Origin: Haloterrigena alkaliphila
Lineage (GTDB): Archaea; Halobacteriota; Halobacteria; Halobacteriales; Natrialbaceae
Reading direction: 5' to 3'
Length of the DNA stretch: 64,000 bases
Assembly: GCF_017352155.2 (NCBI RefSeq)
Contig: NZ_CP071462.1
Location: 1,798,001 to 1,862,000, forward strand
In this document: positions 2,886 to 60,489 of the stretch, piece after piece
How positions within the stretch are numbered: the stretch's first letter is position 1
Layout of the letters: each line of letters begins with the position of its first letter
Notes under the pieces: model-generated
The model's input: the letters and a program-made list of their open reading frames with translations, nothing else
Databases searched by the model: none
Told to the model about the DNA's origin: nothing
Translations under genes and position numbers: made by a program

Positions 2886-3169
2886 GATGATCTCCGCGAA
2901 CCGCACGACGGCGCCGTGGCCGAACGGGCCCGTTCGGATTTTGAACGGTTTGGATCCAGATCGGCGGGTTTCGACCGGCCGATCCGACTCCATCCCGACG
3001 CCGTGTGATGATTCCTGGATCACCAATTATCTCGCGAACGGACACCGTTCCGTCAGGGCCCATCCGATTTCTGAATGGTTCAGATCCAAGGGGCGGCGTC
3101 GGGGTATATTTAAACGGCGCGTCGTTCGCCGCTTAGAGCCCGTTCAATTGGTGAACGGGGGTCGACGTC

Positions 3170-3301
3170 GTGAGCGATCGGTGTTACGTCTCGCCGAAGG
3201 TCATCGATCGGCACTACGACGTACGGACGGAGGAGGACAAGATGAGGCAGTGTCGGGAGGTACTCGATGAGATTTTACGCGACGGTTCGGGCGACCGCTG
3301 A
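3170..3301 (+). pseudogene. C-terminal remnant of a second tyrosine recombinase
   Basis: A 43-codon frame from GTG 3170 encodes only the tail of a haloarchaeal integrase: VSPKVIDRHYDVRTEEDKM contains the Tyr nucleophile region and aligns with VSPDVLEQHYDQRTEKEKM of the complete recombinase at 1875-2885. An in-frame TGA lies five codons upstream, and no catalytic Arg, Lys or His-x-x-Arg is encoded before it. It is thus a fragment, either decay of an old integrase or the C-terminal half of a gene split by SSV-like integration. A TATA-like run (tatatttaaa) some 50 bp upstream means the small frame might still be transcribed. It marks the boundary between the foreign segment and ordinary chromosome. 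Confidence 0.75.
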
Positions 3302-3336
3302 CCGATTCGTCGAACCGATCCGTATCCGATCGGTTC

Positions 3337-3995
3337 TCATTCGTCGGTCGACCGCTCGGTTTCGTACTCGCACGTCGCTTCGAACGGACACGACTCGCAG
3401 TTCGGATCCCTCGCCGTGCAGACAGCCGCGCCGAAGTCGATGAGCGCGTGGAGGAAATCGTCGCACCGGCCCGGGGGCGCCAATCGATCCGAGAGATCCC
3501 ACATTTCGGACGATTCGGGTTCCGCCGATTCGCTCCCGAAAACCCGGGCCAGTACGCGCGCCACGTTCGTGTCCACCGCCGAGGCGTTCCGTCCGTACGC
3601 GTGGGCCAGCACCGAGGCGGCGGTGTACTCGCCGACGCCGTGCAATCCGAGGAGTTCCGATCGGGAGTCGGGCACGCGACCGTCGTGACGCGCGAGGAGC
3701 TGGGCGGAAGCGCGCCTGAAGTACGCCGTCCGTTTTCGCAGCCCCAGCGGTTCGATCGATTCACCGATGTCGGTCTCCGCGGCCGCGAGAACGGTGCCGG
3801 CCGTCGGGTACTGCTCCACGAATTCGTCGTAGACGCCGGTGACTGCTCCGCCGAGGTCTGCTGGAGCATGAGCTCGGCGATCAGTATCTCGAAGGGCGAA
3901 GCGTCCGGATCGCGCCAGGGTAAGTCGTGTCGTCCGTTTTCGGCGTACCACTCGAGCAAGCTTTCGACGAACTCGTCCCCATCCTCAACACGCAT
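3337..3995 (-). pseudogene. MutY/Mig-type HhH-GPD DNA glycosylase, frameshifted
   Basis: Starting at ATG 3995, 51 residues read well as a MutY-type N-terminus (LPWRDP, then LMLQQTSAEQ). The frame then changes near 3843: the continuation VTGVYDEF is found one frame over and runs to the stop at 3337. Adding one C on the plus strand near 3843 would restore a protein of about 219 residues. The second part carries the helix-hairpin-helix (LLGLHGVGEYTAA), the catalytic Asp (SAVDTNVARV) and a complete 4Fe-4S loop, C-x6-C-x2-C-x5-C. There is no C-terminal Nudix-like domain. Length and the PPGRCDDF segment resemble the short Mig thymine-DNA glycosylases as much as MutY. It would remove mismatched A or T from G mispairs. 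It is either a recent pseudogene or a one-base sequence error. Confidence 0.85.
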
Positions 3996-7835: not shown

Positions 7836-8918
7836 ATGGACGAACGCGTCCGCGAACACGCCGAGGTACTGGTCGACTGGAGTGCGCGCGTCGAGGAGGG
7901 CGATAACGTCGTCCTCTCCGTGGGGCCCGACGCGCACGAACTCGCCGTCGCGGTCGCCGAGGCGCTCGGTGAGCGGGGTGCGAACCTGCTGGCGACCTAC
8001 GGTTCGGGCGAGATCACCCGCGCCTACCTCCGGGCCCACGACGGCGACTTCGACGAGGATCCGGCCCACGAACTCGCCCTCGTCGAGAACGCCGACGTCT
8101 ACCTCTCGCTCGGCGGTGGGCGCAACACGAGCGCGACGGCGGACGTACCCGGCGAGATGCGTCGGGCCCACCGCAGCGCCAGAACCGGGATCCGCGAAAC
8201 GCGTCTCGACACGCGCTGGGTGTCGACGGTCCACCCGACCCGGTCGCTCGCCCAGCAGGCCACCATGGCCTACGAGGAGTACCAGGACTTCGCGTACAGC
8301 GCGATCCTCCGGGACTGGGAGTCGCTGGCCGACGAGATGGCGCGGATGAAGGACCTGCTCGACGAGGGGTCGGAGGTCCGACTGGTCTCTGCCGGCACCG
8401 ACCTCACCATGCGGATCGAGGGCCGCACGGCGGTCAACAGCGCCGCCTCGGTCGCGTACGACTCGCACAACCTCCCCAGCGGCGAGGTCTTCACCGCGCC
8501 ATACGCCACCGAGGGCGAGGTAACCTTCGACGTCCCGATGACGCTGCACGGCGAGTCGGTCCGAAACGTCCGCCTCGAGTTCGAGGCCGGCGAGGTGGTC
8601 GACTACGAGGCCGAACAGGGCGAGGCGGTGATCGGCGAGATCCTCGAGACCGACGACGGCGCGCGCCGACTGGGCGAACTGGGGATCGGCATGAACCGCG
8701 GGATCGACCGCTACACGGACAACATCCTCTTCGACGAGAAGATGGGCGACACGATCCACCTCGCGCTCGGCCGGGCCTACGACGCGAACCTCCCCGAGGG
8801 CGAGTCGGGCAACGACTCCGCGGTCCACGTCGACCTGATCACCGACGTGAGCGAGGACTCGCGCCTCGAGATCGACGGCGACGTCGTGCAACGAAACGGT
8901 CGGTTTCGGTGGGAGTAG
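7836..8918 (+). CDS. M29-family aminopeptidase (thermophilic metallo-aminopeptidase)
   Basis: 360 residues from ATG 7836. The order and motifs follow aminopeptidase T/PepS. An N-terminal Rossmann-like half contains VLVDWSARVEEGDNVVL and HELAVAVAEAL. The metal-binding half has LPSGEVFTAPYATEGEVTFD (Glu ligands), IGMNRGIDRYTDNILFDEKM with the Glu of F-D-E-K-M, and a final H-L-A-L-G-R-A-Y. Expected action is cytoplasmic removal of N-terminal residues from peptides with two metal ions. Length is slightly below bacterial members (about 370-410). It probably has its own promoter or is read through from the transporter gene. Confidence 0.92.
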   Translation: MDERVREHAEVLVDWSARVEEGDNVVLSVGPDAHELAVAVAEALGERGANLLATYGSGEITRAYLRAHDGDFDEDPAHELALVENADVYLSLGGGRNTSATADVPGEMRRAHRSARTGIRETRLDTRWVSTVHPTRSLAQQATMAYEEYQDFAYSAILRDWESLADEMARMKDLLDEGSEVRLVSAGTDLTMRIEGRTAVNSAASVAYDSHNLPSGEVFTAPYATEGEVTFDVPMTLHGESVRNVRLEFEAGEVVDYEAEQGEAVIGEILETDDGARRLGELGIGMNRGIDRYTDNILFDEKMGDTIHLALGRAYDANLPEGESGNDSAVHVDLITDVSEDSRLEIDGDVVQRNGRFRWE

Positions 8919-48605: not shown

Positions 48606-49571
48606 TTACTCGTGGATGCCCATCGCTTCGATCTGCTCCTGGTAGCGGTTCCGGATGGTCACTTCCGTGACCTGCGCGACGTCGGAGACCTCCCGCTGGG
48701 TCTTCTTCTCGTTACAGAGCAGCGAAGCCGCGTAGATCGCGGCGGCGGCGTAGCCGGTCGGCGACTTGCCCGAGAGGAGCCCCTTCTCGGTCGTCGTGGT
48801 GATGATCTCGTTGGCCTTCACCTCGACCTCCTCGGAGAGATCGAGTTCGGAACAGAACCGCGGCACGTACTGCTTCGGATCGACCGGCTCCATCTCGAGG
48901 CCGAGTTCTTGGGCGACGTAGCGATAGGTGCGCCCGATCTCCTTTCGCTCGACCCGGGAGACGGCGGCGACTTCCTCGAGCGAGCGCGGGATGCCCTCCA
49001 TCCGGCAGGCGGCGTAGAGGGTGCTCGTGGCGACGCCCTCGATCGAGCGGCCGCGGATGAGGTCCTCGTCGAGCGCCCGTCGGTACATGACGCAGGCGAC
49101 CTCGCGGACGGATCGGGGGATCCCCAGCGAGGACGCCATCCGGTCGGTTTCCGAGAGGGCGAACTGGAGGTTCCGTTCGCCGGCGTCCTTGGTTCGGATC
49201 CGTTCCTGCCACTTGCGCAGGCGGCGCATCTGGTTCCGTTTGTCCGAGGAGATCGACCGGCCGTAGGCGTCCTGGTTCTTCCAGTCGATCGAGGTCGTCA
49301 GCCCCTTGTCGTGCATCGTCTGGGTCGTCGGCGCGCCGACGCGGGACTTGTTCTGTCGTTCGGAGTGGTTGAACGCGCGCCACTCGGGTCCGTGATCGAT
49401 GTTCGTGCCCTCGACGATCAGCCCACATTGATCGCAGACGAGTTCGCCCTGATCCTCGCTTTTGATGAGCGTGCCGCCGTCACACTCGTCACACACCCGC
49501 TCGGGATTCGATTCCTTCGTTTTCTCGGTCGATTTCGGATCTCGGTTTCGCTGGCGGGTGGGGCTTTCCAT
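48606..49571 (-). CDS. tfb: Transcription initiation factor TFB
   Basis: 321 residues from ATG 49571. A zinc ribbon with C-D-E-C and C-D-Q-C spans residues 26-52, followed by the B-finger/linker ([20 protein letters not shown]). Two cyclin repeats cover about 120-210 and 215-310, each with conserved DNA-binding helices; the second ends with [22 protein letters not shown] binds TBP and the BRE and recruits RNA polymerase. Haloarchaea hold several tfb genes with different promoter preference, so the exact paralogue number is left open. Confidence 0.95.
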
Positions 49572-55683: not shown

Positions 55684-56460
55684 TCAGGTTCCGTTGGCGC
55701 CCTCGCCGGCCGCAACGCCGCCCTCGCCGGCGTCGGTCGTTTCGGTGACGTCCGGCAGGTTGGGGTCCCGGTACGGGTTCCGGCCGTAGGCGGGGAGGTC
55801 GTCGTCGAGTTGCTCCTTGAGGACGCGCCGGAGGCGGTTCAGGCTGGTCGTGTCCAGCCCGTAGTCGGCCGCGAGGCGCTCGAACGTCTCCTCGTCGGTG
55901 ATGTCGTGGGCGCGGTACTGGCCGAACAGCTCTTCCATCCGGTCGGCCGAGAGCTGCTGGGCGTCGATGTCGTCGAGCCCGAAGTACTGCTGCCGGTCGA
56001 CGTCGACGACGTGACGGATCGCCACCAGCGCGACCTTCTCGATCGCCCGCTGGCTGCCGAACTCGGTCAGGTCGATCTCGTCCATGACGCCCAGCGCGAG
56101 GTCCCGTTGCCAGGGCGTCACGTCGAGCGCGTTACACAGCGCCTGGGTTGTCCGCAGCCGATCGAGGTGGTGGGCGCGCTCGCTGTACCCCGGCGTCGCG
56201 GCGTGCTGTTCGTCGTGGAGGCGACGGACGCTCTCGGAGAGGTCCGCCTCGGGCGACTCCGCGCGGCCGATGACGGTCGCGCTCGGCGTGACGACGCCCC
56301 ACTGGCGCACCGTCGAATCGCGCTGGACGTCGGCCCGCGAGAGCGATCCGGAGCCGGGTCGGTTCTCGAGACGGCGTTCATCGTCGTACTCGAGTCGGGG
56401 GCTGTCGCCGACGGCCGCGCGGTCGGCGTCCGGACCGGGTTCAGCACCGTCGTCTCTCAT
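55684..56460 (-). CDS. Haloarchaeal RNA polymerase subunit epsilon
   Basis: 258 residues. The first 45 residues are disordered. Conserved text follows: RDSTVRQWGVVTPSATVIGR, YSERAHHLDRLRTTQALCNA, VTPWQRDLALGVMDEIDLTE and FGSQRAIEKVALVAIRHVVD. This is the haloarchaeal protein annotated as DNA-directed RNA polymerase subunit epsilon. The two-fold helical repeats with a W-Q-R region resemble cyclin-like TFB folds. Its exact role in the polymerase is not settled. The 456-bp gap behind its start contains two copies of the five-copy element, in line for regulatory or neutral insertion. Confidence 0.85.
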   Translation of the reverse strand: MRDDGAEPGPDADRAAVGDSPRLEYDDERRLENRPGSGSLSRADVQRDSTVRQWGVVTPSATVIGRAESPEADLSESVRRLHDEQHAATPGYSERAHHLDRLRTTQALCNALDVTPWQRDLALGVMDEIDLTEFGSQRAIEKVALVAIRHVVDVDRQQYFGLDDIDAQQLSADRMEELFGQYRAHDITDEETFERLAADYGLDTTSLNRLRRVLKEQLDDDLPAYGRNPYRDPNLPDVTETTDAGEGGVAAGEGANGT

Positions 56461-56610
56461 TACCTCCCGCTCGGACCGGCAGACGGAAAAAGGCTCCTCC
56501 TAGTCGAACGGTCGCTCGGACGGACTACCAGTTCGACGAACAGGTCGGGGACCACCGGACGGAGCCGGGGCTCTCGAACTCGTCTCGGGTTTCGACGCGG
56601 CGAAAAGCTC

Positions 56611-56645
56611 CTCGTATCTTCACCTTATGACCAGAGGCACTTAAG
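56611..56645 (+). repeat. Five-copy element, copy 1 (short)
   Basis: CTCGTATCTTCACCTTATGA followed by CCAGAGGCACTTAAG, the right half of the element; the left hairpin is absent. It lies 150-185 bp upstream of the RNAP epsilon start (minus strand). The gap 56461-56916 has no gene. Confidence 0.75.
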
Positions 56646-56734
56646 GGGGGTCGCAGCGACCGGCTCGAATCGAACACGCGTCTCAGTCCGCCGGGTTCGG
56701 CCGCTGCGCGGACCGTCGGCTGGCCGTCGATGAT

Positions 56735-56793
56735 CCCTCGAGAACGACGACCTCCCGTCGTCGCTTCACCTTGTGACCGGATGCACGTGAAGC
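56735..56793 (+). repeat. Five-copy element, copy 2
   Basis: CCCTCGAGAACGACGACCTC, CCGTCGTCGCTTCACCTTGT and GACCGGATGCACGTGAAG. The hairpin ACGAC...GTCGT is intact; the CACTTAAAG end is changed to CACGTGAAG. Spacing from copy 1 is 124 bp. Confidence 0.78.
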
Positions 56794-56916
56794 GCGGTCG
56801 TTCCCCCCCGACCCAACACGGTGGTTCCGACGCTCTCGAGTCGCCGGTCGTCCGCCGTTACCGGAACATGACGCCAGCGCAATGAGAAGGTCTTACAACC
56901 GTTCCGCCGGTAACAA

Positions 56917-58941
56917 GTGGAAATGGATTCATCCGTCGGGAAGGATGGCGAACGGTCGCCGCGCGTTCGTCAGCAGGCGGTCATCACCGAACTCGGGCAG
57001 CGAGCGCTCGAGACCGACGACCTCGACGAACTGCTGTCCGACGCGACCGTCGCGGTCGCCGAGACGGTGAACGCCGAGTACTGTCACGTGCTCGAGTTAC
57101 TGCCCGACGCGGACGAACTCGTTCTCCGACAGGGGGTTGGTTGGGACGCCGGCCTCGTCGGCACTGCGAGCGTCCCTACGGAACGGGATTCGCAGGCGGG
57201 CTATACGTTGCTCTCGGAGGAGCCGATCATCGCCGACGACCTGCGTGACGAAGGCCGCTTTGCCGGGGACAACCTGCTGCGCGACCACGACGTCGTCAGC
57301 GGAATCACCGTCCCCATCGGCTCGATCGACGCCCCGTGGGGTGTACTGGGTACGTTCACGTCCGACCACCGAGCGTTCACCGAGCACGACGCCAACTTCG
57401 TCCAGAGCGTGGCGTCTATCCTCGCGGCGGCAGTCGAACGAGCGAACAAAGACCGCCGGTTGCGCGAGCGCGAGGCACAACTGAACGTCGCGACGCAGGC
57501 CGCCTCGATCGGACTCTGGAGCTGGGACGTCCAAGCGAACGTCGTCACCGCCGACGAATTTCTCGCGGAGTCGTACGGCATGGAGTCGGAGTTGGCAGCG
57601 GAGGGCGCCCCGATGGCGACGTTCTTCGAACCGATCCACGAGGACGACACGGCGACCACGTGGGAGCAACTCGAGCGAGCGCTGGAGACGGGGACGTTCG
57701 CGGCCGAATACCGCGTCCGAGACGCGGACGGGACCGTCATGTGGGTGGTTTCCCGCGGCGAGGTCGAGTACGATCGGACCGGCGAGCCGGTGCGACTAAA
57801 CGGCGCCATCGCCGACATCACCGAGCGAAAACGCCGCGAGCAGGCGCTCGAGGAGAGCGAGGAGCGCTATCGGGATCTGTTCACCTCGATGTCCGAGGGA
57901 TACTGCGTCATCGAGAAACTGGACGCGCCTGGAGAGCCGGTCGACTTCCGGTACGTGGAGGCGAACCCGGCCTTCGAGGAACACACCGGTATCGACGACG
58001 TGGTCGGGCGGACTCTTCGGGAGGTCGTGCCGAAAACGACGCAGAAATGGGTCGATACCTACGATCACGTCGCCGAGACCGGCGAACCGGTTACGTTCGA
58101 ACGCGAACTCGTCGCGCAGGGACGGATCCTGGAGTGTTACGCGTTTCCGGTCGGCGACGAGACGACGGCTCAGGTGGGCGTGATTTTCACGGACATCACC
58201 GAGCGGGTCGAACACGAGCGACGGTTAGAGGAGCTGGTCGACGAGCTAGAGGAGTCGAACGAGCGCCTCGAACAGTTCGCCTACGCCGCCTCCCACGACC
58301 TGCAAGAGCCCCTGCGGATGGTCACGAGCTACCTCCAGTTGATCGAGGCTCGATACGAGGATGCACTCGACGAGGACGCCGAGGAGTTCATCGCCTACGC
58401 CGTCGACGGCGCCGAGCGCATGCGCGAGATGATCGACGGCCTGCTGGCGTACTCCCGAATCGAGACGCAGGGCGATCCGTTCGAACCGACGGACCTCAAT
58501 GCGGTACTCGACGACGTGCTGGCGGATCTGCAGCTCCAGATCGACGAGCACGACGCCGAGATCACGTGCGACGAGCTACCCCGGGTCCACGGCGACGGCG
58601 GGCAGCTGCGGCAGGTGTTCCAGAACCTGCTGGACAACGCGATCGAGTACAGCGGCGACGACCCGCCGCGGATTCACGTCGCGGCCGAACGCGACGGGTC
58701 GGCGTGGCGCGTCTCGGTACGCGACGAGGGAATCGGCATCGATCCGGACCAGCAGAGCCGCGTCTTCGACGTGTTCCAGCGGCTCCACTCTCGCGGCGAG
58801 CACGCCGGGATGGGAATCGGGCTCGCGCTCTGCCAGCGAATCGTCGAGCGCCACGGCGGCGACATCCGCGTCGAGTCCGAGCCCGGCGCCGGTGCGACGT
58901 TTTCCTTCACGCTTCCGGCCGCGGGCGGCCACGTCTCGTGA
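56917..58941 (+). CDS. GAF-PAS-PAS sensor histidine kinase
   Basis: 674 residues from GTG 56917 (ATG two codons later is equally possible). GAF domain: about residues 20-175. First PAS: about 190-305 with its PAC strand EVEYDRTGEPVRLNGAIADI. Second PAS: about 315-430. HisKA: FAYAASHDLQEPLRMVTSYL with phospho-acceptor His460. HATPase: QVFQNLLDNAIEY (N box), VRDEGIGIDPDQQSRVFDVF (G1) and GMGIGLALCQRIVERHGG (G2). No membrane segment, so a cytoplasmic sensor of redox or small ligands. No response regulator adjoins, as is common for haloarchaeal orphan kinases. Confidence 0.93.
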   Translation: MEMDSSVGKDGERSPRVRQQAVITELGQRALETDDLDELLSDATVAVAETVNAEYCHVLELLPDADELVLRQGVGWDAGLVGTASVPTERDSQAGYTLLSEEPIIADDLRDEGRFAGDNLLRDHDVVSGITVPIGSIDAPWGVLGTFTSDHRAFTEHDANFVQSVASILAAAVERANKDRRLREREAQLNVATQAASIGLWSWDVQANVVTADEFLAESYGMESELAAEGAPMATFFEPIHEDDTATTWEQLERALETGTFAAEYRVRDADGTVMWVVSRGEVEYDRTGEPVRLNGAIADITERKRREQALEESEERYRDLFTSMSEGYCVIEKLDAPGEPVDFRYVEANPAFEEHTGIDDVVGRTLREVVPKTTQKWVDTYDHVAETGEPVTFERELVAQGRILECYAFPVGDETTAQVGVIFTDITERVEHERRLEELVDELEESNERLEQFAYAASHDLQEPLRMVTSYLQLIEARYEDALDEDAEEFIAYAVDGAERMREMIDGLLAYSRIETQGDPFEPTDLNAVLDDVLADLQLQIDEHDAEITCDELPRVHGDGGQLRQVFQNLLDNAIEYSGDDPPRIHVAAERDGSAWRVSVRDEGIGIDPDQQSRVFDVFQRLHSRGEHAGMGIGLALCQRIVERHGGDIRVESEPGAGATFSFTLPAAGGHVS

Positions 58942-59011
58942 TCGCTGTACGATTGGATGCTACCCCGTAGCCTCCGTTACTGTTCACACCGCAGGCTGAT
59001 TACTCGAAGAA

Positions 59012-59070
59012 TCCTCGAGAACGACGATCTCCCGTCGTAGCTTCACCTTGTGACCAGAAGCACTTAAAGA
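59012..59070 (+). repeat. Five-copy element, copy 3
   Basis: TCCTCGAGAACGACGATCTC, CCGTCGTAGCTTCACCTTGT and GACCAGAAGCACTTAAAGA. It is close to the consensus, and lies between the convergent ends of the kinase and nucleotidyltransferase genes, where a promoter has no target. The hairpin has one changed base (GATCTC). Confidence 0.8.
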
Positions 59071-59100
59071 ACGATCCCCCTCGAGGCGAATCCGGCCGAA

Positions 59101-60021
59101 CTACGCCACGGCGTCGATCATCTCGTCGATGAAGCCGTCCAGTCGGTCGGTTTCGGGGCCGCTACGCGCGTGGACCGCGGGATCGATCTCGCGGGGCGGG
59201 GTGGCGAACTCGCGACCGACGGCGTCGCCGACCGTGGCCGCCCCCTCCCCCGCTCGCTTCCGCTCGAGCAACTCGCGGGCGCGCTCGATCCGGTCGTGGT
59301 CGAAGACCGCGGGCGCCTGCTCGTCCAGGAAGCGATCGAACTCGATTAGGGGCAGTTCGTGGTCGCCTCGCTCCCCGGTGGCCTTCAGGTATCGCGCGGC
59401 CATCGCCGCCCGGTAGATCGTCAGGTTCCGCTTCACCGTGGGTTTCGTCTGCGTCTCGGTGAAGCGCTCGTCGTCGGCCGGAACGGTCATCGTCCCTTCG
59501 TCGGCCTCGACGAGGTAGCCGTCGGCGTAGCTCTCGACGATGGGGAACAGTTCGTCGTCGGTGCGCACCAGGTGGTGGGAGACGTACTTCCGGTAGTTGC
59601 TCGTCGCGATCCCGCGCCACGCGTGATAGAGATCCATCGGATCGTACGCTCCCTCCACGTACGTCCGAAGGTCGGCCGGATCGTACGCGACGCGGTAGCG
59701 GATCGGGCTCCGGAGCGCGTCGATCGCGCCGTCGTTGGAGTCGCCGAGCAGGCGCGCGAACGTCCGGACGTCCCACCCCTGAAACTCGAACTCGTCGCGC
59801 TGCTCGAGGACGACCTCCGTCGGCCCCTCGAGGTGGGCGTATCGGCGCAGATCCCGGGGGACGAAGACGAAGCCGACGTCGTAGTCGCTGACCGGGCTTG
59901 CCGCGCCCCAGGCGCGACTCCCGCGGGCGACGGCGAAGACGACGGTGACGCCGTGGTCGATCTCGATCCACGTCAGCGCGTCGTCGATGGCCTCGTAGAT
60001 GTGGTCCGGGACGGCCGCCAT
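59101..60021 (-). CDS. Predicted nucleotidyltransferase (COG3541-like)
   Basis: 306 residues. VTVVFAVARGSRAWGAASPV followed by SDYDVGFVFV gives the Pol-beta-type G-S-R-x-W-G...D-x-D signature in the first 60 residues. RSPIRYRVAYDPADLRTYVE and the helical C-terminal half (ending PETDRLDGFIDEMIDAVA) match the COG3541/YcgL-like stand-alone nucleotidyltransferases. They may transfer nucleotides to RNA or small molecules; none is proven here. Its upstream region carries two copies of the five-copy element. It is unrelated in sequence to the MNT at 4519. Confidence 0.85.
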   Translation of the reverse strand: MAAVPDHIYEAIDDALTWIEIDHGVTVVFAVARGSRAWGAASPVSDYDVGFVFVPRDLRRYAHLEGPTEVVLEQRDEFEFQGWDVRTFARLLGDSNDGAIDALRSPIRYRVAYDPADLRTYVEGAYDPMDLYHAWRGIATSNYRKYVSHHLVRTDDELFPIVESYADGYLVEADEGTMTVPADDERFTETQTKPTVKRNLTIYRAAMAARYLKATGERGDHELPLIEFDRFLDEQAPAVFDHDRIERARELLERKRAGEGAATVGDAVGREFATPPREIDPAVHARSGPETDRLDGFIDEMIDAVA

Positions 60022-60107
60022 GGCTGTCGCTCGACCGTTCGCGGAGCGAGTGCGAGAAGGTTGCGGCCGAAACCCGACCGCGCTCGAGTCGTCGCTGGTC
60101 TTCTGGA

Positions 60108-60168
60108 CCCTCGAGAAGCGACGACCTCCCGTCGTATCTCTACCTTGTGACCAGAGTCACTTAAAGAG
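60108..60168 (+). repeat. Five-copy element, copy 4
   Basis: CCCTCGAGAAGCGACGACCT, CCCGTCGTATCTCTACCTTG and TGACCAGAGTCACTTAAAGA. It lies 87-147 bp upstream of the nucleotidyltransferase start (minus strand). On that strand its end reads CTTTAAGTG, TATA-like at a distance that would give a leader of about 110 bases. Confidence 0.8.
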
Positions 60169-60281
60169 TTTACAGAGCGAACGGACGACGGTCGGATCGC
60201 CGATAGGGCTGGCAACGAGCGATTCGCTGAGCGGGCTGACGACGAACAGTTCGCCGATAGCCTCGGCTGGCGGAACCGGAA

Positions 60282-60341
60282 CCTCTCAGAAGGACGTTCT
60301 CCCGTCGTATCTTCACCTTGTGACCAGAAGCACTTAAAGAG
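60282..60341 (+). repeat. Five-copy element, copy 5
   Basis: CCTCTCAGAAGGACGTTCTC, CCGTCGTATCTTCACCTTGT and GACCAGAAGCACTTAAAGA. The left arm of the hairpin is changed (GGACGTTCTC) but the right 35 bases are consensus. It lies in the 468-bp gap between the nucleotidyltransferase and mptA, 114 bp from copy 4. Confidence 0.78.
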
Positions 60342-60489
60342 CCAACGGGCTACGGACTGCGTTCGGTTCGATTTTGAACCGCAGTACGCGGGGGTTCTCG
60401 AGTCGCCGGCGTTCGCGGAACCGGCGCCCCGACGACCGACGTCTTCGCGTTCCGAAAGGTTGAATCGCCGCCTGCCCTGAATGCGGACA

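Follow-up and report, generated by a model that had tools for sequence, protein, structure and literature searches.

A TATA-containing repeat co-inherited with the RNA polymerase epsilon subunit gene in haloarchaea

We found that a short element, repeated five times in a 64-kb stretch of a 4.27-Mb haloarchaeal genome (positions 1798001-1862000 of the contig, hereafter the window), tracks rpoeps, the gene for RNA polymerase subunit epsilon, rather than the locus in which it was first seen. We consider it probable that these repeats form a promoter class served by an epsilon-containing RNA polymerase and organized as tandem short units flanking rpoeps. The motif with its boundaries, the number of copies, the fact that they are co-inherited with and adjacent to rpoeps, and a variant that accompanies a divergent epsilon were computed directly from the genomes; contact between epsilon and the element, transcription of the element and the feedback are what we infer. 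Our confidence is strong for the linkage and moderate for the mechanism. The link with rpoeps was absent from the initial annotation, which had described the repeat and proposed several readings of it. Its observation was confirmed and, of its readings, the promoter gained support while an RNA family and a mobile element did not; the subject is now epsilon.

Re-reading of the window bore out that the five copies all lie between genes and in one orientation. When the window was searched with a 23-nt core allowing up to 3 mismatches, 5 matches were obtained against 0.01 expected from dinucleotide shuffles, so that chance does not explain the five copies, and a control with the reversed pattern gave 0 matches across the genome. 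On the minus strand, each copy reads TTTAAGTGNYTCTSGYSACAAGGTRRAGMTAYGANGGRA. With block limits taken from a comparison of 374 copies, copy 1 (56598..56655, minus strand) is the nearest to rpoeps and its TATA, CTTAAGTG, starts at 56645. Copy 2 (56744..56801, minus strand) is degenerate, TTCACGTG replacing TTTAAGTG, so that the TATA is lost and the remainder is intact; among the five, degeneration is greatest in copies 1 and 2. Copy 3 (59021..59078, minus strand) has a consensus core and is located between the convergent genes of a histidine kinase and of RlaP, and copies 4 (60118..60175) and 5 (60291..60348, with a consensus core), also on the minus strand, are both upstream of the RlaP gene. 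The gene positions first given were therefore right: copies 1 and 2 are upstream of rpoeps, copies 4 and 5 upstream of the nucleotidyltransferase, and copy 3 between convergent genes. A search of the whole genome and of its relatives, as the initial annotation had suggested, was carried out with patterns, on which all copy counts given here are based. Outside the window, this genome has just two more copies, 118 bp apart and 266 kb away (1588486-1588632 of the same contig), for a total of 7 copies in two clusters. Within the genus, all six genomes contain the element, with 7-13 copies each; two clusters were seen in this genome and in the genus genomes inspected, some of which also have single copies on other replicons.

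To define the anatomy of the element, we used 374 distinct copies from 118 loci, weighted for redundancy; positions are given relative to the first T of TTTAAGT, read on the window's minus strand. The copies share a gap-free conserved block of ~57 bp, from ~-10 to ~+47. The repeat had been described as a 60-bp element; the conserved repeat stands, and its cross-family extent is that of this block. In order, the block contains a CCG-like patch at -10, TYC, the TATA TTTAAGTG and then NYTCTSGYSACAAGGTRRAGMTAYGANGGRA. Each position of the TATA-like sequence already noticed on the minus strand, TTTAAGT, shows 95-100% conservation. Between it and the putative start is a near-palindrome, CTSGYSACAAG, followed at +27 to +33 by a start-like motif, GATAYGA. 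Outside the block, the copies are near background: upstream nothing is conserved, and downstream only two loose motifs are found, TTCTC at ~+45 to +55 and AGYSRC at ~+60 to +78. In 161 tandem pairs, the spacing was almost never below ~108 bp and mostly 110-150 bp. The hairpin ACGAC...GTCGT that had been noted is local to some copies and is not a feature of the family, since single-copy RNA folds have no excess stability (mean z-score +0.2, 195 copies). A micro-ORF was also considered and rejected: although an ATG stands at the expected start of some copies, ATACGA takes its place in most, and the frame is interrupted by single-base indels. In a scan of the window at Rfam gathering thresholds, only tRNAs were matched, and the exact element pattern was absent from viral contigs.

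An archaeal pre-initiation complex has a footprint of ~-38 to +20 around the start, and the conserved span of the element, which has the same length, would occupy this interval if the start lies ~25 bp past the TATA. As in an archaeal TATA/BRE promoter recognized by TBP and TFB, TTTAAGT stands ~25 bp ahead of a conserved purine/TA region, here the putative start. Unlike in such a promoter, the spacer and the putative initially transcribed region hardly vary, and the purine/A-rich BRE is absent from the 374 copies, which are instead pyrimidine-rich (TYC) just upstream of the TATA, with T/C, C/T and C at -3 to -1. Since conservation extends from the TATA through the spacer and the likely start to ~20 bp further, the shared promoter or leader, one of the options first put forward, is the best supported reading, on the minus strand.

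In the window, rpoeps (55684..56460, minus strand) encodes a protein of 258 aa, and the RlaP gene (59101..60021, minus strand) an RNA-repair-associated polymerase-beta-type nucleotidyltransferase (Pfam PF10127); a histidine kinase and the GTP cyclohydrolase MptA are the other neighbors. In most of ~70 aligned loci, a separate TATA-like sequence precedes the ATG of rpoeps by ~30 bp and lies downstream of the elements. In the window, the probable core promoter of rpoeps is CTTTTTCC (56486..56496, minus strand), ~30 bp before the ATG and apart from the repeats, as judged from the sequence and these loci. The elements thus form short units of their own rather than simply being the promoter of rpoeps; a GNAT gene, like rpoeps, seems to have its own promoter downstream of elements. 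In the genus-mates, the start codon of RlaP is 80 bp past the TATA of an element and a second TATA is not evident; there the element probably drives RlaP directly. RlaP is a neighbor in most of the family, 96 of whose 125 genomes encode it; several genomes lacking a detectable RlaP keep the elements. The constant neighbor across haloarchaeal families is rpoeps, not RlaP.

The protein encoded at 55684-56460 is the sole recurrent gene product at loci chosen by the element in several families with differing synteny, and adjacency of the element and rpoeps was also observed in unrelated gene neighborhoods, including a plasmid-sized contig. We assign it to the epsilon family from the public annotation of close homologs: its plasmid homologs are annotated "DNA-directed RNA polymerase subunit epsilon", and the homolog at Halobacterium loci is 73-77% identical, the reference for the name being OE_1279R (rpoeps) of Halobacterium salinarum. 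Conversely, of 80 named contigs found by epsilon alone, at least 70 carry elements in the flanking sequence that was retrieved, most of them located within 100-350 bp upstream of rpoeps. In a sample of 392 genomes, a strong rpoeps was found in 163 of the 164 with a strict-pattern element (Fisher 3e-89, a p-value inflated by phylogeny because related genomes are not independent). The single exception is an 87%-complete assembly. Outside the family of this genome, 71 of 72 element-bearing genomes have a strong rpoeps; in one family, the only element-bearing genome (6 copies) has rpoeps as well. In the other direction, rpoeps was found without a strict element match in 17 of the 392 genomes. When the loci of ten of these 17 were read with a relaxed 39-nt pattern, an element was found near rpoeps in all ten, with 2-7 mismatches, against at least 13 mismatches in 12 control loci. 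The link is thus near-complete both ways. By this near-exclusive occurrence with rpoeps and beside it, we define it as an epsilon-linked element; co-inheritance alone is no proof that epsilon contacts it directly.

Some genomes contain a divergent epsilon paralog of ~216 aa (E ~1e-20) that has its own element variant, TTTAAGTRYTTCTTGCGACAATRTGCGT, downstream of the paralog stop codon. The variant pattern TTTAAGTRNTYCYTGCGACAATNTGCG was found in 12 of 392 genomes, all of which belong to the set of 39 that show a signal of the paralog (Fisher 2e-13, inflated in the same manner), and the paralog adjoins the variant element at 13 of 13 loci. Directly after the variant element, ~430 nt of noncoding sequence are conserved, with a consensus fold of 37 pairs, 15 of which have two-sided changes. 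Because the alignment consists of 12 rows in two groups, this structured RNA is a candidate only; an Rfam scan of it gave sub-threshold chance matches only. In addition, on a plasmid of Halobacterium hubeiense, a 30%-identical epsilon lies beside a TBP gene with an element upstream. A factor and a site that diverge together are what direct recognition would predict, and this is not proof of it.

We then looked at epsilon itself. Its AlphaFold model is all-helical with a mean pLDDT of 64, rising to ~85-90 across large parts of residues 91-160 and 190-220. With this model, the top Foldseek rows were mostly cyclins and TFIIB/Brf2, with weak E-values (best 0.37), and the top VIA-align rows were mostly cyclin-fold proteins, with Pyrococcus TFB (1d3u_B) at Z 9.7 over 98 residues, a score that is at times fortuitous in helical bundles. 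At the profile level, hhalign of epsilon against the six TFBs of its own genome gave no relationship (probability 0.2%), for which TFB homology by profile was dropped; in Pfam, a TFIIB match was absent for epsilon itself and weak for one paralog (E 0.1). A sequence search of solved structures with epsilon returned nothing meaningful, and neither did a defence-protein library with epsilon, RlaP or the proteins of the paralog module. A helical epsilon with a cyclin/TFIIB-like core is a supported lead and not a family membership. This predicted fold comes from a model of mean pLDDT 64 and could be convergent, given the missing profile relationship and the weak Foldseek E-values.

In 1983, the subunit was co-purified with the RNA polymerase of Halobacterium; purified polymerase containing it is reported to transcribe native templates efficiently, while epsilon-free polymerase does not (PMC8305020, citing Madon and Zillig 1983). 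This was the sole relevant source in the literature searched for rpoeps, in which no cis-element for epsilon was found. The claim that the repeat belongs to an undescribed family is not contradicted, either by this literature or by Rfam. Bacterial sigma factors and the expanded archaeal TFBs likewise have factor genes linked to their sites and divergent paralogs linked to site variants. Epsilon differs from them in being described as an extra subunit of the purified polymerase and in bearing no TFB signature detectable by sequence, and that it touches the site is a proposal here.

We propose that the repeats are minus-strand promoters of a hitherto undescribed class and that the epsilon-bearing polymerase uses or controls them. 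TBP would bind TTTAAGT, and epsilon, through its predicted TFB-like core, would help to recognize the unusually conserved DNA from the TATA to the start, TCTSGYSACAAGG, and also that of the start region, RRAGMTAYGANGGRA. The units of ~110 bp would stand in tandem beside rpoeps and a few other genes. As rpoeps would be read from its own leaderless promoter downstream of the elements, we propose that the arrays yield short, mostly unconserved transcripts, or merely hold the epsilon-polymerase. They would thereby set epsilon levels, a feedback on their own locus, and some elements would drive a gene directly, such as RlaP with a leader of ~50 nt. More tentatively, epsilon may be a TFB-like alternative initiation factor with the repeats as its dedicated promoters, its subfamilies and their variants having co-evolved and its products being mainly noncoding RNAs, short in the arrays and ~430 nt and structured in the paralog module; we regard this stronger version as possible but less likely than not.

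The chief rival to a promoter class is that the repeats are operators, where epsilon or the epsilon-polymerase binds as a regulator or is titrated, and not productive promoters. Their co-inheritance and adjacency with rpoeps would be equally expected, the near-palindrome before the start fits, and the downstream genes seem to have their own promoters. This reading is kept alive by the near-random sequence past +47, even within one array (28.7% identity vs 27.0%). We nevertheless find it rather unlikely, since the conserved TATA and the ~20 bp conserved past the expected start have the shape of a promoter, the tandem spacing, almost never below ~108 bp, exceeds the needs of an operator, and the paralog variant directly precedes a candidate structured RNA. 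That same minimum unit of ~108 bp in the tandem pairs, the loose TTCTC and AGYSRC motifs and the ~430-nt candidate, with its two-sided changes in 15 of 37 pairs, would suit multicopy small RNA genes with their own promoter, for example RNAs binding epsilon or polymerase. As in tandem small-RNA arrays, the units follow one another head-to-tail, and their minimum length is close to 110 bp; unlike in these, only the promoter part is conserved and the putative RNA body is not, even between copies of one array. Together with the mean folding z of +0.2 and the unmatched Rfam scan, this makes small RNA genes improbable and leaves the RNA family first envisaged unsupported for the window copies.

The position of RlaP between copies 3 and 4, in a cluster shared by the genus and many relatives, would accord with RNA-repair ncRNAs partnering RlaP, like the Y RNAs of bacterial RNA-repair operons. 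This idea was dropped on distribution, as RlaP is not constantly linked: nine genomes of the own family have elements and no detectable RlaP, and in other families the elements lie by rpoeps, with RlaP absent from the fetched loci. It now appears highly improbable. A neutral or mobile repeat of the MITE or REP type would account for copies that are multiple, intergenic and at times on secondary replicons. Instead of the hundreds of scattered copies that the initial annotation had named as the sign of a neutral repeat, the genome has 7, in two clusters that match those of its genus-mates, and the element is kept across families together with rpoeps. Such a repeat, including the small non-autonomous element first suggested, is for practical purposes refuted.

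The biological relevance of epsilon has been called enigmatic (PMC8305020). If epsilon recognizes the elements, the paralog epsilon would be expected to serve TTCTTGCGACAATATGCG but not TTCTGGTCACAAGG. An element that follows rpoeps, along with a variant that follows its paralog, makes the role of epsilon experimentally approachable at named sites.

In the window, a gene for a GAF/PAS histidine kinase (56917-58941) was located between element copies 2 and 3. Since this kinase was not found in the corresponding cluster of the inspected genus-mates, the gene seems to have been inserted into the element array. Near rpoeps were also found a TFB gene (48606-49571), about 7 kb away and one of several in the host genome (17 TFIIB-repeat matches), and, a few genes away, the gene for a KaiC-domain protein (TIGR03880, 52531-53730).

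Two further copies form a second cluster on contig C1 of the same genome (G000:C1:1588486-1588632; positions 8488 and 8606 of the fetched locus L006), with the gene for an AEC-type permease on one side and that for a GNAT acetyltransferase on the other. At this permease/GNAT site, genus-mates carry two to five copies, and in some of them another element precedes a PAP2 phosphatase. More diverged copies, single or paired, were observed on other contigs (loci L041, L046, L048, L051, and L052), close to uncharacterised genes and, for several of them, with the leader ATATAGCAGGGAGTCGTTCTC.

In distant haloarchaea, a recurrent module was observed at loci L185-L190 and L193-L204. As exemplified by L202, it comprises, in order, an epsilon-like gene (747-1424), one variant element (1501), a conserved noncoding stretch of about 430 nt that is a candidate structured RNA without an Rfam entry (about 1526-1960), and small ORFs, which in some loci encode a zinc-ribbon protein (about 128 aa) together with a protein of about 100 aa. 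The genes flanking the module vary between loci. On plasmid pSTJ003 of Halobacterium hubeiense (locus L165), a 30% identical epsilon paralog (1367-1927) was observed near a TATA-box-binding protein gene (2950-3864), with an element between them at 2720.

Finally, in other families, elements (L064:5739, L070:6334, L065:5901, and L071:5469) were found 125-147 bp ahead of genes that seem to encode MenA, seryl-tRNA synthetase (both labels assigned by eye), and a DsbA-like protein. This arrangement hints that the elements serve a small regulon.
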